DNA of 32,818 bases from Pisciglobus halotolerans (GTDB lineage Bacteria; Bacillota; Bacilli; Lactobacillales; Carnobacteriaceae): contig NZ_FOQE01000020.1 in the NCBI RefSeq assembly GCF_900113675.1, forward strand, positions 11,469 to 44,286, in the 5' to 3' direction. The translations under genes and the position numbers were made by a program. Positions within the stretch are counted from its first letter, which is position 1. Each line of letters opens with the position of its first letter. The notes under the pieces are model-generated. The model ran no database searches. It had not been told where the DNA came from and saw only the letters and a list, made by a program, of their open reading frames with translations. Shown here piece by piece: positions 4,451-28,228 of the stretch.

Positions 4451-5413
4451 TTAATGGACAGGCGTATAGGTTTCATATTTTCCGGATACAGGATCCATTT
4501 TTGTTAAGCTGTCCGAAGATAGATCATATTTAAACATCCCAACCATATTTGAGATTTCTACACCGTCTACTTCATGGGCATGTCGAATCTCGATTTGATA
4601 AGTGGTTTCATTTTCTTTCGTTGCAAAAAACTGGTTATCAGATGGTGAAATACCAGTCTTTTCCACTACTTTGTCTAAAACATAGTTTTGTTCTTCTTCC
4701 AATGTCATTGTTTTTTCTTGTGTAGAAGTAGAAGCACTGGAAGCTGTGCTGCTGTCTTTTTTATCAGCAGGATTGTCTTTTTGACTTGATTCAGTTTCTG
4801 TTTTTTCTGCTGTATCTTGTTTTTGGTCAACAGCGCTATCTTTACTTTCTTTACTTTCCTTACTTTCTTTACTTTCCTTACTTTCTTTACTTTCTTCGCT
4901 AGCTTTATTGACTTGGGTATTTTCGACTTCTGTGTGAGCAGCTGCTGTTTCTTGTTTTGTTATCCACTGTTTGATTTCTTTGTCAGAAGCCATTTTGATA
5001 TTTTTGCCTGTTTCTTTGGTAAATGCTTCCCCTGTGATGACAGATTTGCGTTCAGCTTTATAGTCAGACTTTTCCATTAAGTCATATGTATCATCTTGAA
5101 CGGTTTCTTCCGTTTGAGCAGTTGTTATTTTTTCTTTCAATGCTTCTGCATCGGCTTTTAAATCGGGATAATCTGTTAAATCATTTTGCAACAGCATGTC
5201 GATATTTCCAGCAGCTTCATCATACTTTTCATCACCATAAAGGTCCTGGCTATCTCTGTACATATTCTGATAAGCGGTCTTCTGGTCAGAGGATTCAACT
5301 ACTGCGCTACTTGTTACAGCAGTGTCCGTTTCTTTTTCATTTGCCGTTCCACATGCACTTAACACACCAACACTAGAAAGGACAACAGCTGAATAGATCC
5401 ATTTCTTTTTCAT
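4451..5413 (-). CDS. Secreted lipoprotein with ESK repeat linker, unknown function
   Basis: The 320-residue protein starts with a lipoprotein signal peptide (KKKWIYSAVVLSSVGVLSAC), cysteine 21 being the lipidated residue. Residues about 45-105 form a helical, TPR-like region (YQNMYRDSQDLYGDEKYDEA). The middle, about 155-235, is low-complexity and hydrophilic with six ESK tripeptides. The C-terminal 85 residues (from MTLEEEQNYVLDKV) form a compact domain ending YETYTPVH. It is expected on the outer face of the membrane, the linker perhaps spanning the wall. No enzymatic motif is visible and I do not recognise the family. The start has AAAGGAGG upstream and a near-consensus promoter at 5452-5480. 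It is transcribed alone. Confidence 0.75.
   Translation of the reverse strand: MKKKWIYSAVVLSSVGVLSACGTANEKETDTAVTSSAVVESSDQKTAYQNMYRDSQDLYGDEKYDEAAGNIDMLLQNDLTDYPDLKADAEALKEKITTAQTEETVQDDTYDLMEKSDYKAERKSVITGEAFTKETGKNIKMASDKEIKQWITKQETAAAHTEVENTQVNKASEESKESKESKESKESKESKDSAVDQKQDTAEKTETESSQKDNPADKKDSSTASSASTSTQEKTMTLEEEQNYVLDKVVEKTGISPSDNQFFATKENETTYQIEIRHAHEVDGVEISNMVGMFKYDLSSDSLTKMDPVSGKYETYTPVH
4841..4903 (-). repeat. In-frame 9-bp repeats encoding (ESK)n
   Basis: On the coding strand GAAAGTAAR recurs about six times in a row inside the lipoprotein gene, with an alternating last base that makes an 18-bp higher-order pattern. The unit is a multiple of 3, so slippage would change linker length without breaking the frame. 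Confidence 0.8.
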
Positions 5414-8184: not shown

Positions 8185-8321
8185 GGTTCTTCTTCTTTTA
8201 ACGTTGGTAAAGAAATTTCCTAAGGTCGATGGGCTACTGAAATTTCTAGAAATAGGATTCTAACGAGTTTAGCATTAAAAAAATTGCTTTTTTACAGACC
8301 AACGTTAAATATTGTAGAACC
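8185..8321 (+). mobile_element. MITE-like palindromic element, copy A (short form)
   Basis: The 137-bp element starts GGTTCTTCTTC and ends ATTGTAGAACC, with terminal inverted repeats built around TTTAACGTTGGT. It is flanked by a perfect 8-bp duplication CTTTTATT (8177-8184 and 8322-8329). No coding capacity. Near-identical to copies B and D. Confidence 0.92.
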
Positions 8322-12779: not shown

Positions 12780-12917
12780 GGTTCTTTCTCTTTTAACGTT
12801 GGTAAAGAAATTTCCTACGGTCGATGGGCTACTGAAATTTCTAGAAATAGGATTCTAACGAGCTTAGCATTAAAAAAATTGATTTTTTTACAGACCAACG
12901 TTAAATATTGTAGAACC
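12780..12917 (+). mobile_element. MITE-like palindromic element, copy B (short form)
   Basis: This 138-bp copy differs from copy A at only a few positions. It has a perfect 8-bp target duplication, ACATTTTT (12772-12779 and 12918-12925). It lies between the convergent mntR and rsmI genes. Confidence 0.92.
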
Positions 12918-18125: not shown

Positions 18126-18758
18126 TCAGTTACATTGCTTCATAATAACGGTATAACATTCTTGTACTACTTTTTCCAATGTTTGACTTGCATCAATAGC
18201 AACGATCCGTTCCGGGTTTTCCTTTAACAGCAGTAAATACGCGTCACGGACTTTTTCATGAAAAGCCAGTTCTTCCTGATCCAACCGATCATATTGTCTG
18301 TCGGCTTTGCCTTTTTGGATCCTTGCTAATCCTTCTTTGGCTTCAATATCTAAGTAAAGCGTTAAGTCAGGCGACATATTTTCCGTAGCAAATGCATTGA
18401 TCGCTGCGACTTCTTTCATGCCGACCCCTCGAGCCCAGCCTTGATACGCTAAAGAACTGTCTACAAAACGATCGCTAATAACGATTTGACCTTGTTCTAA
18501 TGCAGGAATCACTTTTTCTACCAAATGCTGTCTTCTTCCAGCTGCATATAACAACGCTTCTGTACGTTCGTCCATTTCTGTATGTTCTGGATCCAAAATG
18601 AGCTCCCGTATTTTTTCAGCAATGCGACTGCCGCCAGGTTCTCTCGTAGCCATAACTTCTTGTTGAAGTGCTGCCGATAATTTTGGGACAAGCGCTTGAA
18701 TGACACTCGTTTTCCCTGCTCCATCAGGCCCTTCGATCGTAATAAAACATCCTTTCAA
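18126..18758 (-). CDS. tmk: Thymidylate kinase
   Basis: The 210-residue enzyme phosphorylates dTMP to dTDP. Walker A is IEGPDGAGKTS at residues 8-18, the DR motif is in ISDRFVDSSLAYQG and the lid region follows about residue 140. It begins with TTG at 18758: AAGGAG lies seven bases upstream and no better start exists. Its promoter is at 18791-18819, so the tmk-darA-holB-yabA unit is transcribed independently of recR. Confidence 0.96.
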   Translation of the reverse strand: MKGCFITIEGPDGAGKTSVIQALVPKLSAALQQEVMATREPGGSRIAEKIRELILDPEHTEMDERTEALLYAAGRRQHLVEKVIPALEQGQIVISDRFVDSSLAYQGWARGVGMKEVAAINAFATENMSPDLTLYLDIEAKEGLARIQKGKADRQYDRLDQEELAFHEKVRDAYLLLLKENPERIVAIDASQTLEKVVQECYTVIMKQCN

Positions 18759-18790
18759 AGCAAAAACTCCTTAACTGTATTCTTGTTTCT

Positions 18791-18819
18791 ATTATACTGT
18801 ATCCTGCCCATTCAGTCTA
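18791..18819 (-). promoter_or_regulatory. Promoter of the tmk operon
   Basis: Reading leftwards, TAGACT (18819-18814), a 17-base spacer and TATAAT (18796-18791), about 35 bases before the TTG start. Confidence 0.65.
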
Positions 18820-18992
18820 ATAGGATTTGAAAATCATCATCGGATTCTTTTCTTCAGACCCATCGCTTCGCTTTACTAACTGCATAACACAGCAATCTGA
18901 TCTGCTGTGACGCTGCTTTTACATGTAACGAACTCTTAAGCGGTCAAAAAGTTAATCCTCTTGTTCCTCTTTTGGACTAAATGTAAATCTTT
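18820..18992. other. Non-coding flank between the tmk promoter and MITE copy C
   Basis: No gene or convincing signal is seen. The rest of the 627-bp recR-tmk gap is MITE copy C (18993-19280) and about 105 bp of unremarkable sequence next to the recR stop. Confidence 0.5.
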
Positions 18993-19280
18993 GGTTCTAC
19001 AATATTTAACGTTGGTTTGTAAAAAATCAATTTTTTTAATGCTAAACTCGTTAGAATCCTATTTCTAGAAATTTCAGGAGGCGCATAGGGCCTACTGATA
19101 GCCATGAAAAAAGATGCAATGTGAATCACTTAGTGTTAGGCTTTAGCCGTTACACGAAGTTTGAAGCTTGCAAGCATTGAGACGCGATTTTCGGCTAAAT
19201 GCGTTCTCATGGCTTTCCATCAGTAGCCCATCGACCGGAGGAAATTTCTTTATCAACGTTAAGTTAAAAGAGGAAGAACC
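18993..19280 (-). mobile_element. MITE-like palindromic element, copy C (288-bp long form)
   Basis: The same terminal inverted repeats as the short copies (GGTTCTACAATATTTAACG at one end, AAGAGGAAGAACC at the other) enclose about 150 extra bases. A perfect 8-bp duplication, AAATCTTT, flanks it (18985-18992 and 19281-19288). Three further nested stems lie inside. GGGCCTACTGATAGCCATGA (19088) faces a matching arm at 19207-19229. TTTAGCCG (19142) faces CGGCTAAA (19192). The self-complementary GCTTGCAAGC lies in the centre. No coding potential. Confidence 0.9.
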
Positions 19281-19385
19281 AAATCTTTCAGTTGTACAAC
19301 AAAAGGACAGTGAATAGAGTTCCGCAACTCCTCCATTCTCTGTCCCATATTTTTTACTGTCTTATTTAGGTTCTCTCTTTGACAA

Positions 19386-19982
19386 TTAAATTTCTCGTCT
19401 GCCTTCGACGGCTTTGAGCAAAGTGATTTCATCCGCATACTCAATGTCGCTGCCGACAGAAAGTCCGTGAGCCAAACGAGTCACTTTGATACCGGCCGGC
19501 CTGATCAAACGGGATAAATACGTTGCCGTCGCTTCTCCTTCAGCTGATGCATTCGTCGCCAAGATAACTTCTTGCACTTCTTCCGATTGCAGCCGCTTCA
19601 GTAAAGAAGGAATATTGATGTCTTCTGGTCCTGTGCCTTCGATCGGTGACAAAATTCCATGCAGCACATGATACAACCCATGATATTCTCTGACCCTTTC
19701 TAGAGCCATCACATCCTTGACATCTTCTACAACTAAAATCGTGCTGCGATCACGATCCTTATCTCGACAAATATCACACGGATCGCTTTCAGTGATATTT
19801 CCGCAAATGGAACAATAATGCAAATCGCGCTTTGCGCTGATCAAGGATTTGGCAAAGTCGGTCACGTCCTCTTCATCCATATCAATGGTGAAGAAAGCTA
19901 AACGTGCAGCTGTCTTGGCTCCAATCCCCGGCAATTTCATATAGCTATCCATTAATTTAGATATTGGTTCAGGGTATTGCAT
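19386..19982 (-). CDS. recR: Recombination mediator RecR
   Basis: The 198-residue protein acts with RecF/RecO in loading RecA at gaps. It has the N-terminal helix-hairpin-helix ([16 protein letters not shown]), a four-cysteine zinc finger ([16 protein letters not shown]), a Toprim domain ([14 protein letters not shown]) and the C-terminal [17 protein letters not shown] stretch. Length equals the family norm. A terminator at 20034-20077 separates it from ebfC, so part of its expression may come from its own promoter, which I could not place. Confidence 0.97.
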
Positions 19983-20033
19983 GTCATTTTCCTTTCTTGA
20001 GTGACAGAATGCTTTTCACGTACTTTTTTCTTT

Positions 20034-20077
20034 AAAAAAATGAGATCCTGCAGCAGCATCTCATTTTCACTCTTTAT
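20034..20077 (-). terminator. Intrinsic terminator between ebfC and recR
   Basis: Read leftwards, AAAATGAGAT pairs with ATCTCATTTT around an 11-12-base GC-containing loop, followed by a T run at 20040-20034. Confidence 0.8.
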
Positions 20078-20198
20078 TCGTAGTTTGTTTTAGCAAAACC
20101 TTCTTCTTCGCTTGAATGATCTGATCCAGATTTCTAGGCGAAGAAAAAAATTTGCTTACAGTGAATAGTTTTCTCCTGAGTCTTAAAAAGTGCTGCTT

Positions 20199-20516
20199 TT
20201 ATAAACCAGGAATATTTAATCCATTTGTATATTTTCCCATCACTTTTTCTGATTCAGCTTCAACTTTTGCTAAAGCATCATTTGTTGCTAGTAAAATCAG
20301 GTCTTCCAGTATGCCGCTGTCTTCCGGATCCATTACTTCTGGTTTGATTGCAACGGCGGTCATTTTTTTATCACCGGTAAAGGTTACAGTCACCAAGTCA
20401 CCATTAGCCGTACCTGTAAATTCTTTAGCATTTAGTTCTTGTTGTGCTTGTTCCATTTCTTTTTGCATTTTTTGTACTTTTTTCATCATACCTTGCATAT
20501 TACCCATTCCACGCAT
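20199..20516 (-). CDS. ebfC: Nucleoid-associated protein EbfC/YbaB
   Basis: The 105-residue protein has the family opening MRGMGNMQGMMKKVQKMQKE, an N-terminal helix. A strand region (VTVTFTGDKKMTAVAIKPEV) and a C-terminal helix (LATNDALAKVEAESEKVMGK) follow. Homologues are dimers that bind DNA. It lies 54 bp after dnaX in the conserved dnaX-ebfC-recR order, but a terminator follows. Confidence 0.94.
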   Translation of the reverse strand: MRGMGNMQGMMKKVQKMQKEMEQAQQELNAKEFTGTANGDLVTVTFTGDKKMTAVAIKPEVMDPEDSGILEDLILLATNDALAKVEAESEKVMGKYTNGLNIPGL

Positions 20517-20570
20517 GTATATCTTCCTCTCTCATTTTAAATGTTCCATTTTTTTGCTAAACCATGATTC

Positions 20571-22406
20571 TTAATCATTTTGTACTTCAACGATCTCTTT
20601 GCCAAATAGCTGAACCGCTTCTGTTACGATTGGATCTTCTTTCTGTTCCTCACCGGCTTCATCCACTGGGATCAGTTGGTTCAAACTCTCCCATCCTGCA
20701 TCCGGTTCTGCTGACTCCAGCTGGGACGCGTTTGAAGAAGACGCTGTTTTTTGTGCTTCCTTAGGATGATCAGTTGATTCAGCTTTTGTTCTGGATTGGA
20801 TCTCTTCCTTATGGTGCTTTAAATAGTCGCTCCTGATCATTGGCCATTGCTCAGCCGTAACCGTGATCATTTGAGGTGCATAGCCGATCAGCCGATTCAA
20901 ATAACTGCCGATGGCTTGGACAAGGTTTTCGTCTGAAGCAGCTTTTTGACATAAAATATCATAATCAAAAGAAACGATCAAGCCTTCTGGACTAGCTGCG
21001 ACAGGTGTGGAAGCTTTCATGACAGCCCGCTGTGTCACAGAAAGCATATCTAGCAAATCTGGCCATACATCACGCAACTGCAGCAAGTTTTGTTTGGTGG
21101 CTACACCCAGCACCTTGTAAATGGCTGACACATTTGGTTTAAATGCGCCATTTGCAGCTTTTTTAGGCGCTCTCTTCGCTGGTCTTGCGGCTGTTGTCTG
21201 CGACTGCTGTACACTAAGCGTCTGCAGTTGCTGTTTCAATGCCTGTAGTTCCGACTCTAGTTGCTGTACTTTTTGGCTGTCTGCAGCTTTTTCTTCAGTT
21301 GGAAGAGGTGAAGCAGTGTTTGCTTGCATTTGGGTTAATTTGACTGTTGCCACTTCCAAGTATACATCTGCATGGTTGGTCAGTTTCATTTCCCGCTGCG
21401 TTTCATTCAAAATCTTTATTGTTTCATACAAAGCTGTATTTGAGATCTCCTGGCTCATCGCAGTAAAGGTTTCATCAACGCGAGCCGTTTCCAAAATCTC
21501 AGATTTAGCTGGCGCTTGCTGATAGACCAACAGATCGCGGCTAAATAAAATCATATCTTCCACAAACCGTGCGGCATCTTTTCCTTCTGCCAATATCTCT
21601 TGCAATAAAGACAAGCCTTTTTCTGTGTCATGATGAAGAATAGCTGAAAAGTAATCAATCAGTTTTTCCTGTGTCAGACTTCCGGTTACACTTAATGCAT
21701 TTTCAACCGTCACTGTATCCTCACCATAAGAAATCGCCTGATCCAAAATACTCAATGCATCTCGCATCCCGCCTTCTGCTGCACGTGCAACGATCTGCAA
21801 AGATTCTGGTTCAAAACGAATCTCTTCTTGTTCCAAGATATAAGTCATCCGCGCAATGATCGCTTGAAGCGAAATACGCTTAAAATCAAAGCGCTGTGTC
21901 CGTGAAATGATTGTCAACGGAATTTTATGCGGCTCAGTCGTTGCGAGAATAAAGATAACATTTTGAGGAGGTTCTTCAAGTGTTTTTAACAACGCATTGA
22001 AAGCTCCCGTCGATAACATATGCACTTCATCAATGATGTAGACTTTATAATCTGCAACAGTTGGTGCATATTTAGCTTTATCACGAATATCGCGAATCTC
22101 TTCGACCCCATTATTGCTGGCCGCATCGATCTCAATGACATCATTCAACTGACCTTTAGTGATTGCACGACAAGTTTCACAAGTATTGCATGGCTCGCCA
22201 TCTTTCAAGTTAGGACAATTGATTGCTTTAGCAAATATTTTTGCTGCACTCGTTTTTCCGGTTCCCCTTGGTCCGGTAAAAAGATAAGCATGGCTTGTCT
22301 TTCCTTGAATCAAAGCATTCTTCAATGTTTGTGTAATGGCCTGCTGTCCTGCGATTTCATCAAAACGCTGCGGACGCCATACCCGATAAAGTGCTTGATA
22401 GCTCAT
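20571..22406 (-). CDS. dnaX: DNA polymerase III gamma/tau subunit
   Basis: The 611-residue clamp-loader ATPase begins MSYQALYRVWRPQRFDEIAG. It has Walker A GPRGTGKTS, a zinc module (CPNLKDGEPCNTCETC), Walker B IIDEVHM and the SRC-type IISRTQRF. A long C-terminal tau region with low-complexity linkers (about residues 370-430 and 545-590) should bind the polymerase. It is transcribed away from the SRP RNA gene. Confidence 0.96.
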   Translation of the reverse strand: MSYQALYRVWRPQRFDEIAGQQAITQTLKNALIQGKTSHAYLFTGPRGTGKTSAAKIFAKAINCPNLKDGEPCNTCETCRAITKGQLNDVIEIDAASNNGVEEIRDIRDKAKYAPTVADYKVYIIDEVHMLSTGAFNALLKTLEEPPQNVIFILATTEPHKIPLTIISRTQRFDFKRISLQAIIARMTYILEQEEIRFEPESLQIVARAAEGGMRDALSILDQAISYGEDTVTVENALSVTGSLTQEKLIDYFSAILHHDTEKGLSLLQEILAEGKDAARFVEDMILFSRDLLVYQQAPAKSEILETARVDETFTAMSQEISNTALYETIKILNETQREMKLTNHADVYLEVATVKLTQMQANTASPLPTEEKAADSQKVQQLESELQALKQQLQTLSVQQSQTTAARPAKRAPKKAANGAFKPNVSAIYKVLGVATKQNLLQLRDVWPDLLDMLSVTQRAVMKASTPVAASPEGLIVSFDYDILCQKAASDENLVQAIGSYLNRLIGYAPQMITVTAEQWPMIRSDYLKHHKEEIQSRTKAESTDHPKEAQKTASSSNASQLESAEPDAGWESLNQLIPVDEAGEEQKEDPIVTEAVQLFGKEIVEVQND

Positions 22407-22503: not shown

Positions 22504-22640
22504 GGTTCTTCCTCTTTTAACGTTGGTAAAGAAATTTCCTACGGTCGATGGGCTACTGAAATTTCTATAAATAGGATTCTAACGAGCTTAGCATTAAAAA
22601 AATTGATTTTTTACAGACCAACGTTAAATAGTGTAGAACC
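22504..22640 (+). mobile_element. MITE-like palindromic element, copy D (short form)
   Basis: The 137-bp copy lies between the dnaX start and the SRP RNA gene. It has a perfect 8-bp target duplication, ATAAAAAT (22496-22503 and 22641-22648). The internal sequence matches copies A and B almost exactly. Confidence 0.92.
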
Positions 22641-28130: not shown

Positions 28131-28228
28131 GAATTTACAGTATTTAACATTGATCAGTAAAAAATCATTTTTTTAATGCTAACCCCTTAAAATCCTATTT
28201 CTTTACTAACGTTAGAAGAGGAAGAACC
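28131..28228 (-). mobile_element. MITE-like palindromic element, copy E (degenerate, internally deleted)
   Basis: A 98-bp relic ends AGAGGAAGAACC and keeps TATTTAAC, TTTTTTTAATGCTAA and AATCCTATTTCTTTACTAACG, but the central part of the short form is missing. One terminus has decayed to GAATTTACAG. The flanks AAACAAAA and AAATAAAA match at 7 of 8 bases. Confidence 0.8.

Follow-up and report, generated by a model that had tools for sequence, protein, structure and literature searches.

The window analysed here is a stretch of 32,818 nucleotides from the genome of Pisciglobus halotolerans (G000, a draft of 2.44 Mb in 88 contigs), and positions 18993-19280 of it hold a 288-nt repeat, designated copy C, which has the ends of a miniature inverted-repeat transposable element (MITE). 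We propose, at about even confidence, that copy C is a non-autonomous MITE of the ISL3 type, and that its cargo is a structured RNA of about 195 nt which is associated with the ISL3 elements of Carnobacteriaceae and Aerococcaceae (membership of the latter follows from a name) and which serves the element. The sequences point to this through the ends and duplications of the element, through ISL3 elements of relatives with nearly the same ends, through a covarying fold, and through complete ISL3 elements that bear the RNA. We infer that the RNA is transcribed, from the + strand, and that it works for the element and not for the individual insertion sites.

Copy C and its ISL3-type ends

Copy C starts with GGTTCT and finishes with AGAACC, and the same 8-bp sequence, AAATCTTT, is found on either side of it. 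The features that define the insertion are the following:

18985-18992, no strand: left target-site duplication AAATCTTT, an exact match to 19281-19288
18993-19280, + strand: long MITE copy C, 288 nt (family consensus 282 nt)
18993-19016, + strand: left terminal inverted repeat GGTTCTACAATATTTAACGTTGGT, a near match to GGTTGTACAATATTTGACGTTGGT of complete ISL3 elements in genomes G008 and G016
19254-19280, + strand: right terminal inverted repeat, reading GGTTCTTCCTCTTTTAAC... on the - strand
19281-19288, no strand: right target-site duplication AAATCTTT

Compared with the consensus, copy C has a 6-nt addition near the right end and one extra base in GGGCC. The complete ISL3 elements of G008 and G016 (PF01610) are bounded by GGTTGTACAATATTTGACGTTGGT and GGTTCTACGTCAACTGACGTTGGT and have 8-bp duplications; their ends are close to those of the MITE, not identical, and at the right end the agreement with GGTTCTACGTCAACTGACGTTGGT lies in GGTTCT and AACGTTG/GACGTTG and is weaker in between. 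An 8-bp repeat is also given for an ISL3-type transposon in one report (PMC9782665). No reading frame of at least 90 amino acids overlaps copy C, and the 282-nt consensus has no transposase gene. Judged by sequence, the defining features of an ISL3 MITE that were tested (shared terminal inverted repeats, 8-bp duplication, absence of a transposase gene) are thus all present and identify copy C as a non-autonomous ISL3-type transposon, for which mobilisation in trans by an ISL3 transposase is a predicted feature.

The preliminary description of this segment had suggested that a transcript of all 288 bases could fold. The RNA folding energy of copy C is -84.6 kcal/mol, against -62.8 kcal/mol for shuffled sequences (standard deviation 4.8, z -4.57), and none of 200 shuffles folded as well, in line with that suggestion.

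A conserved structured RNA in the core

The conserved fold lies in a core that is shared with other genera, and which in copy C consists of the following parts:

19063-19258, + strand: conserved structured RNA core, about 195 nt (covariance model R1, 187.7 bits, full length 1-195; copy C itself is among the 40 sequences used to build R1)
19068-19076, + strand: 5' arm of the basal helix, pairs with 19240-19248; also 19080-19081 with 19235-19236
19092-19106, + strand: 5' arm of the long stem, CTACTGATAGCCATG / CATGGCTTTCCATCAGTAG, pairs with 19208-19226
19112-19118, + strand: AGA and TGCA strand; AGA pairs with 19205-19207, TGCA with TGCA at 19169-19172
19128-19160, + strand: inner hairpin ACTTAGTGT..GGC-TTTA-GCC..ACACGAAGT; pair 19132-19156 broken in copy C
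19174-19202, + strand: second inner hairpin GCATTGAG..CTAAATGC (consensus CTCAATG); pair 19179-19197 broken in copy C

The last pair of the basal helix is a non-standard A-G in copy C. The TGCA/TGCA helix appears in relatives as TTCA/TGAA, TACA/TGTA and TCCA/TGGA, and the unpaired strands GUGAAUUA, UUUGAAGCU and GAGAC are largely conserved. The inverted pairs noted earlier from copy C alone fit this architecture to different degrees. The pair 19088/19207 is real and largely coincides with the long stem. The pair 19142/19192 (TTTAGCCG/CGGCTAAA) does exist in the sequence, but it relies on a change private to copy C (consensus CGGCTCAA) and falls outside the conserved fold, where TTTA forms the loop of one hairpin and the CTAA part lies in a different one. 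Likewise, the proposed centre GCTTGCAAGC is present, yet its TGCA does not pair with itself in the conserved fold; its partner is the TGCA at 19115-19118.

When the consensus of the P. halotolerans copies was compared with 21 full-length foreign copies, identity was 62-88% in the left and 45-80% in the right terminal inverted repeat, 61-81% in the core and 11-56% in the subterminal part (25-70). The body of a neutral MITE should resemble the subterminal part, which argues that the core is constrained. Covariation was assessed in an alignment of 40 copies (A1), made up of 36 foreign copies of 41 prepared and four from P. halotolerans; 14 loci (four own-genome duplicates and ten others, mostly partial) and then three composite or partial ones had been left out beforehand. 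The structure has 48 pairs, of which 27 show compensatory changes. Pairing is retained in 95.5% of the cells, compared with 86.0% after shuffling and 30-45% when the structure is slid along the alignment, and the doubly changed cells number 189 against 58.7 and 20-40, respectively; on each of the five measures all 500 shuffles fell short. Because A1 itself was the source of the structure, the latter is favoured over its slid versions. All four standard pair types occur in single pairs of columns, for example 56/114 (GC 23, UA 11, AU 4, CG 1) and 119/145, and some column pairs outside the structure score as well, through changes shared by clades. A broader set of 51 sequences, in an alignment fitted to the model, gave double changes in 42 of the 48 pairs and a score of 0.632 versus 0.169 for shuffles. 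A separate MAFFT alignment, refolded without the model, returned the same main stem, hairpins and linkers, with 29 of 36 pairs compensated; alignment A4 consisted of 30 copies picked by hand from among the matches, none from the window's family, and was folded by RNAalifold alone. A 4-bp helix that joins stretches about 57 nt apart has one covarying pair of four in the 40 copies and three of four in the broader set.

These data support the earlier suggestion of selection on a fold, since the inner stems are compensated across genera. As to whether the fold is one of RNA or DNA, which had been left open, the pair cells contain 106 G-U against 25 A-C combinations (any G-U in 28 of the 48 pairs, any A-C in 20), so that RNA, and its + strand, is favoured. 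On this sequence evidence the inner 195 or so bases appear to be a structured RNA conserved across genera. A known Rfam family was considered and rejected: at the gathering thresholds Rfam 15 gave no match over the core in the window, and at E up to 1 in 22 loci the only two matches that touch the core, both below threshold and both in locus L132, were to JA03 (E 0.045, 25.3 bits, threshold 44) and SSRC8_2 (E 0.64, 17.1 bits, threshold 72), which are taken as chance.

The RNA in ISL3 elements, its distribution and its loss

The same RNA is found within complete ISL3 elements of three Aerococcus-like genomes. Genome G119 has eight matches (ten candidates were scored), each directly behind an ISL3 transposase frame, one of which has an internal stop and one is interrupted by another insertion sequence. 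All six of those tested for ends are complete elements of about 1.78 kb with exact 8-bp duplications, in the order stop codon, about 13 nt, RNA, terminator-like hairpin (recognised by eye) and right end, and both PF01610 and the ISL3 zinc ribbon are present in the transposase. A second ISL3 lineage, in G020 and G270 (one locus examined per genome), has a transposase with 46% identity, a length of 1810 bp and 8-bp duplications, and a reduced RNA at the same place behind the transposase (44.7 bits, E 2e-9 to 3e-8) which retains the main stem and the GAGAC hairpin. In the Aerococcus-like family, the RNA follows the transposase in three of the 28 ISL3 loci examined. Among the titles and abstract openings of the open literature searched we found no description of such an RNA in ISL3.

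In G010 and Carnobacterium jeotgali (G002) the ISL3 ends differ and read GGCTGTATAATTTTTGGTGTGGATGA, a type that is also borne by core copies of G010 and G015; the same core therefore travels on different ISL3 end types. The RecR of P. halotolerans is 88% identical to the RecR proteins of C. jeotgali and Desemzia, which places it in or close to the Carnobacteriaceae, and its draft genome contains five fragments of ISL3 transposase. Those at contig ends were rejected as the donor, since the three that were read terminate in GGCTCTTTGACAAGTAG, unlike the MITE end.

By DNA search the element was found in 12 of 59 genomes, that of P. halotolerans included, and in five of 16 named genomes (C. jeotgali, Desemzia sp. 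RIT 804, Desemzia incerta, a Carnobacterium metagenome-assembled genome and Atopococcus tabaci), four of which are also among the 59, with identical coordinates. Model R1 has 52 places in P. halotolerans and matches 11 of 18 genomes of the family, 28 of 246 of the order and two of 398 of the class, its own genome being counted in each; with strict filters the other 218 of the 246 gave no match. The copy number reaches 88 per genome. One RNA copy shares 86.6% identity with part of a record of Aerococcus tenax, and from that one match G119, G203, G112 and G099 probably belong to Aerococcus. The A. tenax record CP127381.1 (591,691 bp, labelled plasmid) has ten RNA-like places, the best of which overlaps no listed gene, and its size suggests a piece of chromosome labelled as a plasmid. 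On contig G010:C4, all 28 of the RNA places listed, of 85, lie within the first 1.14 Mb of 2.47 Mb.

The short form of the family had been explained in the preliminary description as the long form after deletion of about 150 bases between two sites that share CTGA. The delimited copies agree with this. All 40 scored places (among 130 candidates in the P. halotolerans genome) match the long form at 90-100%, and copies of two size classes could be delimited there: 41 are long, at 277-288 nt with a consensus of 282 nt, and 22 are short, at 134-139 nt with a consensus of 137 nt. The short consensus lacks 145 bases of the long one, between AAATTTCAG and ATCAG|TAGCCC, and the long AAATTTCAG|GAGG and ATCAG|TAGCCC become the short AAATTTCAG|TAGCCC with TCAG (CTGA on the other strand) in common, which identifies the short form, as far as sequence can, as a microhomology-mediated internal deletion of the long form. 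As the core of the long form also occurs in other genera, that form is ancestral and can be regarded as the parent, with the correction that the short form is itself mobile. Exact 8-bp duplications flank 31 of the 41 long and 12 of the 22 short copies (36 and 19 with at most one mismatch), while 0.98 and 0.55 are expected after re-dealing the right flanks, and the left duplicates are 82% and 87% A+T, respectively. Duplications flank both sizes, and therefore each class moved independently; a long form that is unique, or that arose by insertion into a short copy, is rejected.

The long copies differ from their consensus by 0.4-7.4%. The short copies fall into a young cohort at 2-4% (n=9) and an older one at 7-13% (n=12), with a single outlier (L120, 34%) that was retained among the 22. 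Most of the older cohort shares this junction, which makes the deletion an old one and, given the divergence of this cohort, older than most of the present long copies. Forms of 98-101 nt and 66 nt with the same ends are also present in the genome. Five shorter copies lie in the window:

8185-8321, - strand: short form, 137 nt, target-site duplication CTTTTATT
12780-12917, - strand: short form, 138 nt, target-site duplication ACATTTTT
22504-22640, - strand: short form, 137 nt, target-site duplication ATAAAAAT
28131-28228, + strand: core-less form, 98 nt, imperfect target-site duplication AAACAAAA/AAATAAAA
32158-32258, - strand: core-less form, 101 nt, no clear target-site duplication

In the short copy L043:1501-1637 the inner segment is inverted between two GAAATTTC palindromes. 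A. tabaci (L223, L228) has a short form of about 109 nt without most of the core, 83-96% identical to the window's family.

The orientation relative to genes was tallied for 30 of the 41 long copies and 21 short copies, with frames called by a simple length rule. Ten long copies lie in convergent intervals, ten are co-directional in sense and eight in antisense, one is divergent and one is at an edge; the short copies number 8, 4, 4 and 4 in the same categories, and one is inside a frame. There is accordingly no orientation bias in either set, and a fixed orientation to genes is rejected.

Same-strand tandem copies at a spacing of 237-241 nt occur in L379 (G203) and in L403, L404 and L407 (G010), and at 246-272 nt in L348 (G078) and L349 (G161); these six loci hold tandem pairs or a triplet. 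An RNA copy adjoins the 3' end of mnmG in L390 (G112), L397 (G099) and L405 (G010), that is, in three genomes and two families (mnmG was recognised by homology in L397 and from a family search in the other two). The orientation differs, so these are probably independent insertions. Copies in or near a dnaX-ebfC-recR-tmk cluster were observed in the window (18126-22406) and in the Aerococcus-like L376, L396 and L384, in different intervals, and none of 80 recR loci had the element in its flanks. In two species the RNA stands in the same interval, between ebfC- and recR-like frames; these orthologues are identical at 186 of 187 positions in the RNA and 761 of 801 in the rest, a pair too close to be informative. 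In a rnc-plsX pair the figures are 144 of 188 and, for the rest of the aligned stretch, 586 of 830, which may reflect replacement by a paralogue rather than descent. Phage carriage was rejected: viral contigs gave no matches to one narrow motif pattern (one that the P. halotolerans copy itself does not fit), and blastn with one Aerococcus-like copy returned no phage record. Elsewhere in the window, a tandem array with a 52-bp period occupies 1-582 at the window edge, and a 9-bp tandem repeat at 4827-4916 (- strand) encodes SKE repeats in a predicted lipoprotein-like gene.

Possible roles of the RNA

How the RNA might serve the element can be outlined as follows. It could be the 3' part of the ISL3 transposase transcript and, for example, be bound by the transposase or regulate it, in which case MITEs would keep a copy of the RNA to share the benefit gained by the ISL3 element. 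A parallel is found in short interspersed nuclear elements, which mimic the 3' end of their partners, the long interspersed nuclear elements. Where the RNA is lost by deletion, the ends would still permit movement for a time, as in the short forms, and over long times the lineages that persist between genera would be those that retain the RNA. The wider proposition, whose chance we put a little short of even, is that ISL3 insertion sequences encode a dedicated RNA behind the transposase, and that small elements made up of this RNA alone between ISL3 ends have spread, swapped their ends when the partner ISL3 changed, and seeded hosts with dozens of copies, a part of which the host retained once the ends had gone.

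Several observations weigh against a cargo RNA that serves the ISL3 element. A need of the RNA for transposition is rejected, because forms without the core (137, 98-101 and 66 nt) have moved and have duplications. No intact ISL3 with MITE-type ends was found in the draft genome of P. halotolerans, no ISL3 transposase match was obtained in G004, G009, G013 and G015 despite their RNA copies, and ends that match an ISL3 of the same genome were seen in G008 and G010 only. In the window's family 27 ISL3 loci were examined and even the best RNA match, at 14.3 bits, is unconvincing, 25 of the 28 loci in the Aerococcus-like family have no RNA behind the transposase, and the RNA of G020 and G270 is without the inner hairpin and its GAAUUA linker. 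By eye, no promoter motif was seen in the left flanks of 33 copies; of the 34 copies in this set, one had no left anchor and two had no right anchor. Furthermore, the check for compensatory changes, which holds across genera, fails among the young copies of P. halotolerans: of 97 changed pair cells 56 are broken, 40 are one-sided changes that keep pairing and one is compensated, and substitutions amount to 2.5% in the paired core, 2.9% in the unpaired core, 4.9% in the subterminal part and 2.2% in the ends. The copies of G203, finally, keep pairing (26 compensated, 8 broken) without the outer ends, which fits a role for the host better.

Such a role, in which a regulatory or processing RNA of the host hitchhikes on ISL3 ends, the transposon being a vehicle and the host keeping useful copies after the ends have decayed, is possible but the less probable explanation. 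In G203, G112 and G099 the RNA is dispersed and the outer ends are unrecognisable. Between copies of G203 and G112, identity is 54-78% over the 60 nt at either end of the core and 22-43% in the flanks (gapless comparison anchored on the RNA), and the changed pairs are mostly compensated, with broken, one-sided and compensated cells of 8/4/26 in G203 and 2/9/11 in G112; the counts are 12/12/13 in G010, 10/22/5 in G008, 23/31/30 in G009 and 10/10/4 in G015. The tandem same-strand copies of G010 and G203 and the shared ebfC-recR interval in two species speak for a host role as well. Against it stand the up to 88 copies per genome, the lack of orientation bias (10 sense and 8 antisense among the 30 long copies), the uncompensated decay of the young P. 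halotolerans copies and the absence from 218 of the 246 genomes of the order. The inner halves of ISL3 ends are visible beside some of the dispersed copies, which therefore look like old insertions. Since the fold is compensated across genera and the young copies decay, the constraint appears to act on the spreading lineages and not on each insertion: recent bursts are unguarded copy by copy, and long-lived copies and lineages keep the fold. Selection could therefore act on the mobile lineage, come from the host for some of the copies, or do both, and the data do not decide among these. We infer that a role at the level of the element is most likely, with one at the level of the host close behind.

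Two further explanations are improbable. If the core were the hairpin of an ordinary MITE, whose arms are re-matched by hairpin-templated repair or gene conversion, the RNA would have no function. Prokaryotic MITEs are described as giving stable stem-loop transcripts in a review (PMC10969869), inner segments do flip (as in short copy L043), and part of the covariation comes from clade-shared changes, some unpaired column pairs also scoring. This explanation is nevertheless already disfavoured, because repair of arms does not predict the excess of G-U over A-C, nor largely conserved unpaired strands, a covarying helix between stretches some 57 nt apart or a core conserved beyond its own flanks, and because the slid controls, which preserve relatedness, stay low. 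A DNA element, whose folded single strand would be recognised by the transposase or by proteins of replication, is given an equally small chance: ISL3 ends and transposase act on DNA and the segment folds well as a single strand (by RNA energies only), but the G-U/A-C asymmetry and the transposition of core-less forms argue against it.

The proposed ISL3 MITE with an RNA cargo can be compared with several known systems. Bacterial MITEs derived from insertion sequences share with it terminal inverted repeats of the parent, direct repeats, AT-rich intergenic sites, high copy number and a stable predicted transcript fold (PMC10969869, the text of which, as far as accessible, does not mention ISL3); they differ in that the body here retains its homology and its structure across genera and families, and is also found inside complete ISL3 elements. 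The BOX, RUP and SPRITE repeats of Streptococcus pneumoniae are likewise interspersed and extensively structured as RNA, and were judged parasitic by their authors; for BOX, similarity of the terminal inverted repeats to ISSpn2 was proposed and transcripts were shown, but BOX consists of modular boxB arrays, the RNAalifold structures came from 30 copies each in one genome, and the portion seen does not mention a matching RNA inside the donor insertion sequence (PMC3049150). In the Bacillus cereus group, bcr1 (on average 39 copies per strain) and other BCR repeats have a similar size of 100-400 bp and features of mobility, but the latter is tied to a TTTAT motif and a recombination-like mechanism in one species group (PMC6542083). 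Both groups of repeats are set apart from the MITE family here by their descriptions. The bridge RNA of IS110 is, like the present RNA, a non-coding RNA of an insertion sequence next to the recombinase, with programmable loops for target and donor DNA (PMC11208160, PMC11208158). In contrast, the 8-mers at which near-identical MITE copies stand are AT-rich but unrelated, and the ISL3 transposases form another family; L002, L003 and L015, at 0.4-0.7% from the consensus, lie at ACTATAAA, AAAAAAGC and AAAAAAAA, so that no guide-type variation with the target was seen among the 8-mers compared.

The bodies of MITEs are usually viewed as decaying leftovers with nothing worth keeping. A fold that is kept across bacterial families and recurs inside complete ISL3 elements indicates that a common family of DDE transposons may carry a working RNA, and if ISL3 elements do encode such an RNA it would define a new class of transposon RNAs, acting either in transposition or for the host. 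Why some small bacterial repeats keep RNA folds, for the transposon or for the host, thereby becomes testable, and a model like R1 lets an RNA family that is absent from Rfam 15 be annotated in intergenic space that is now blank.
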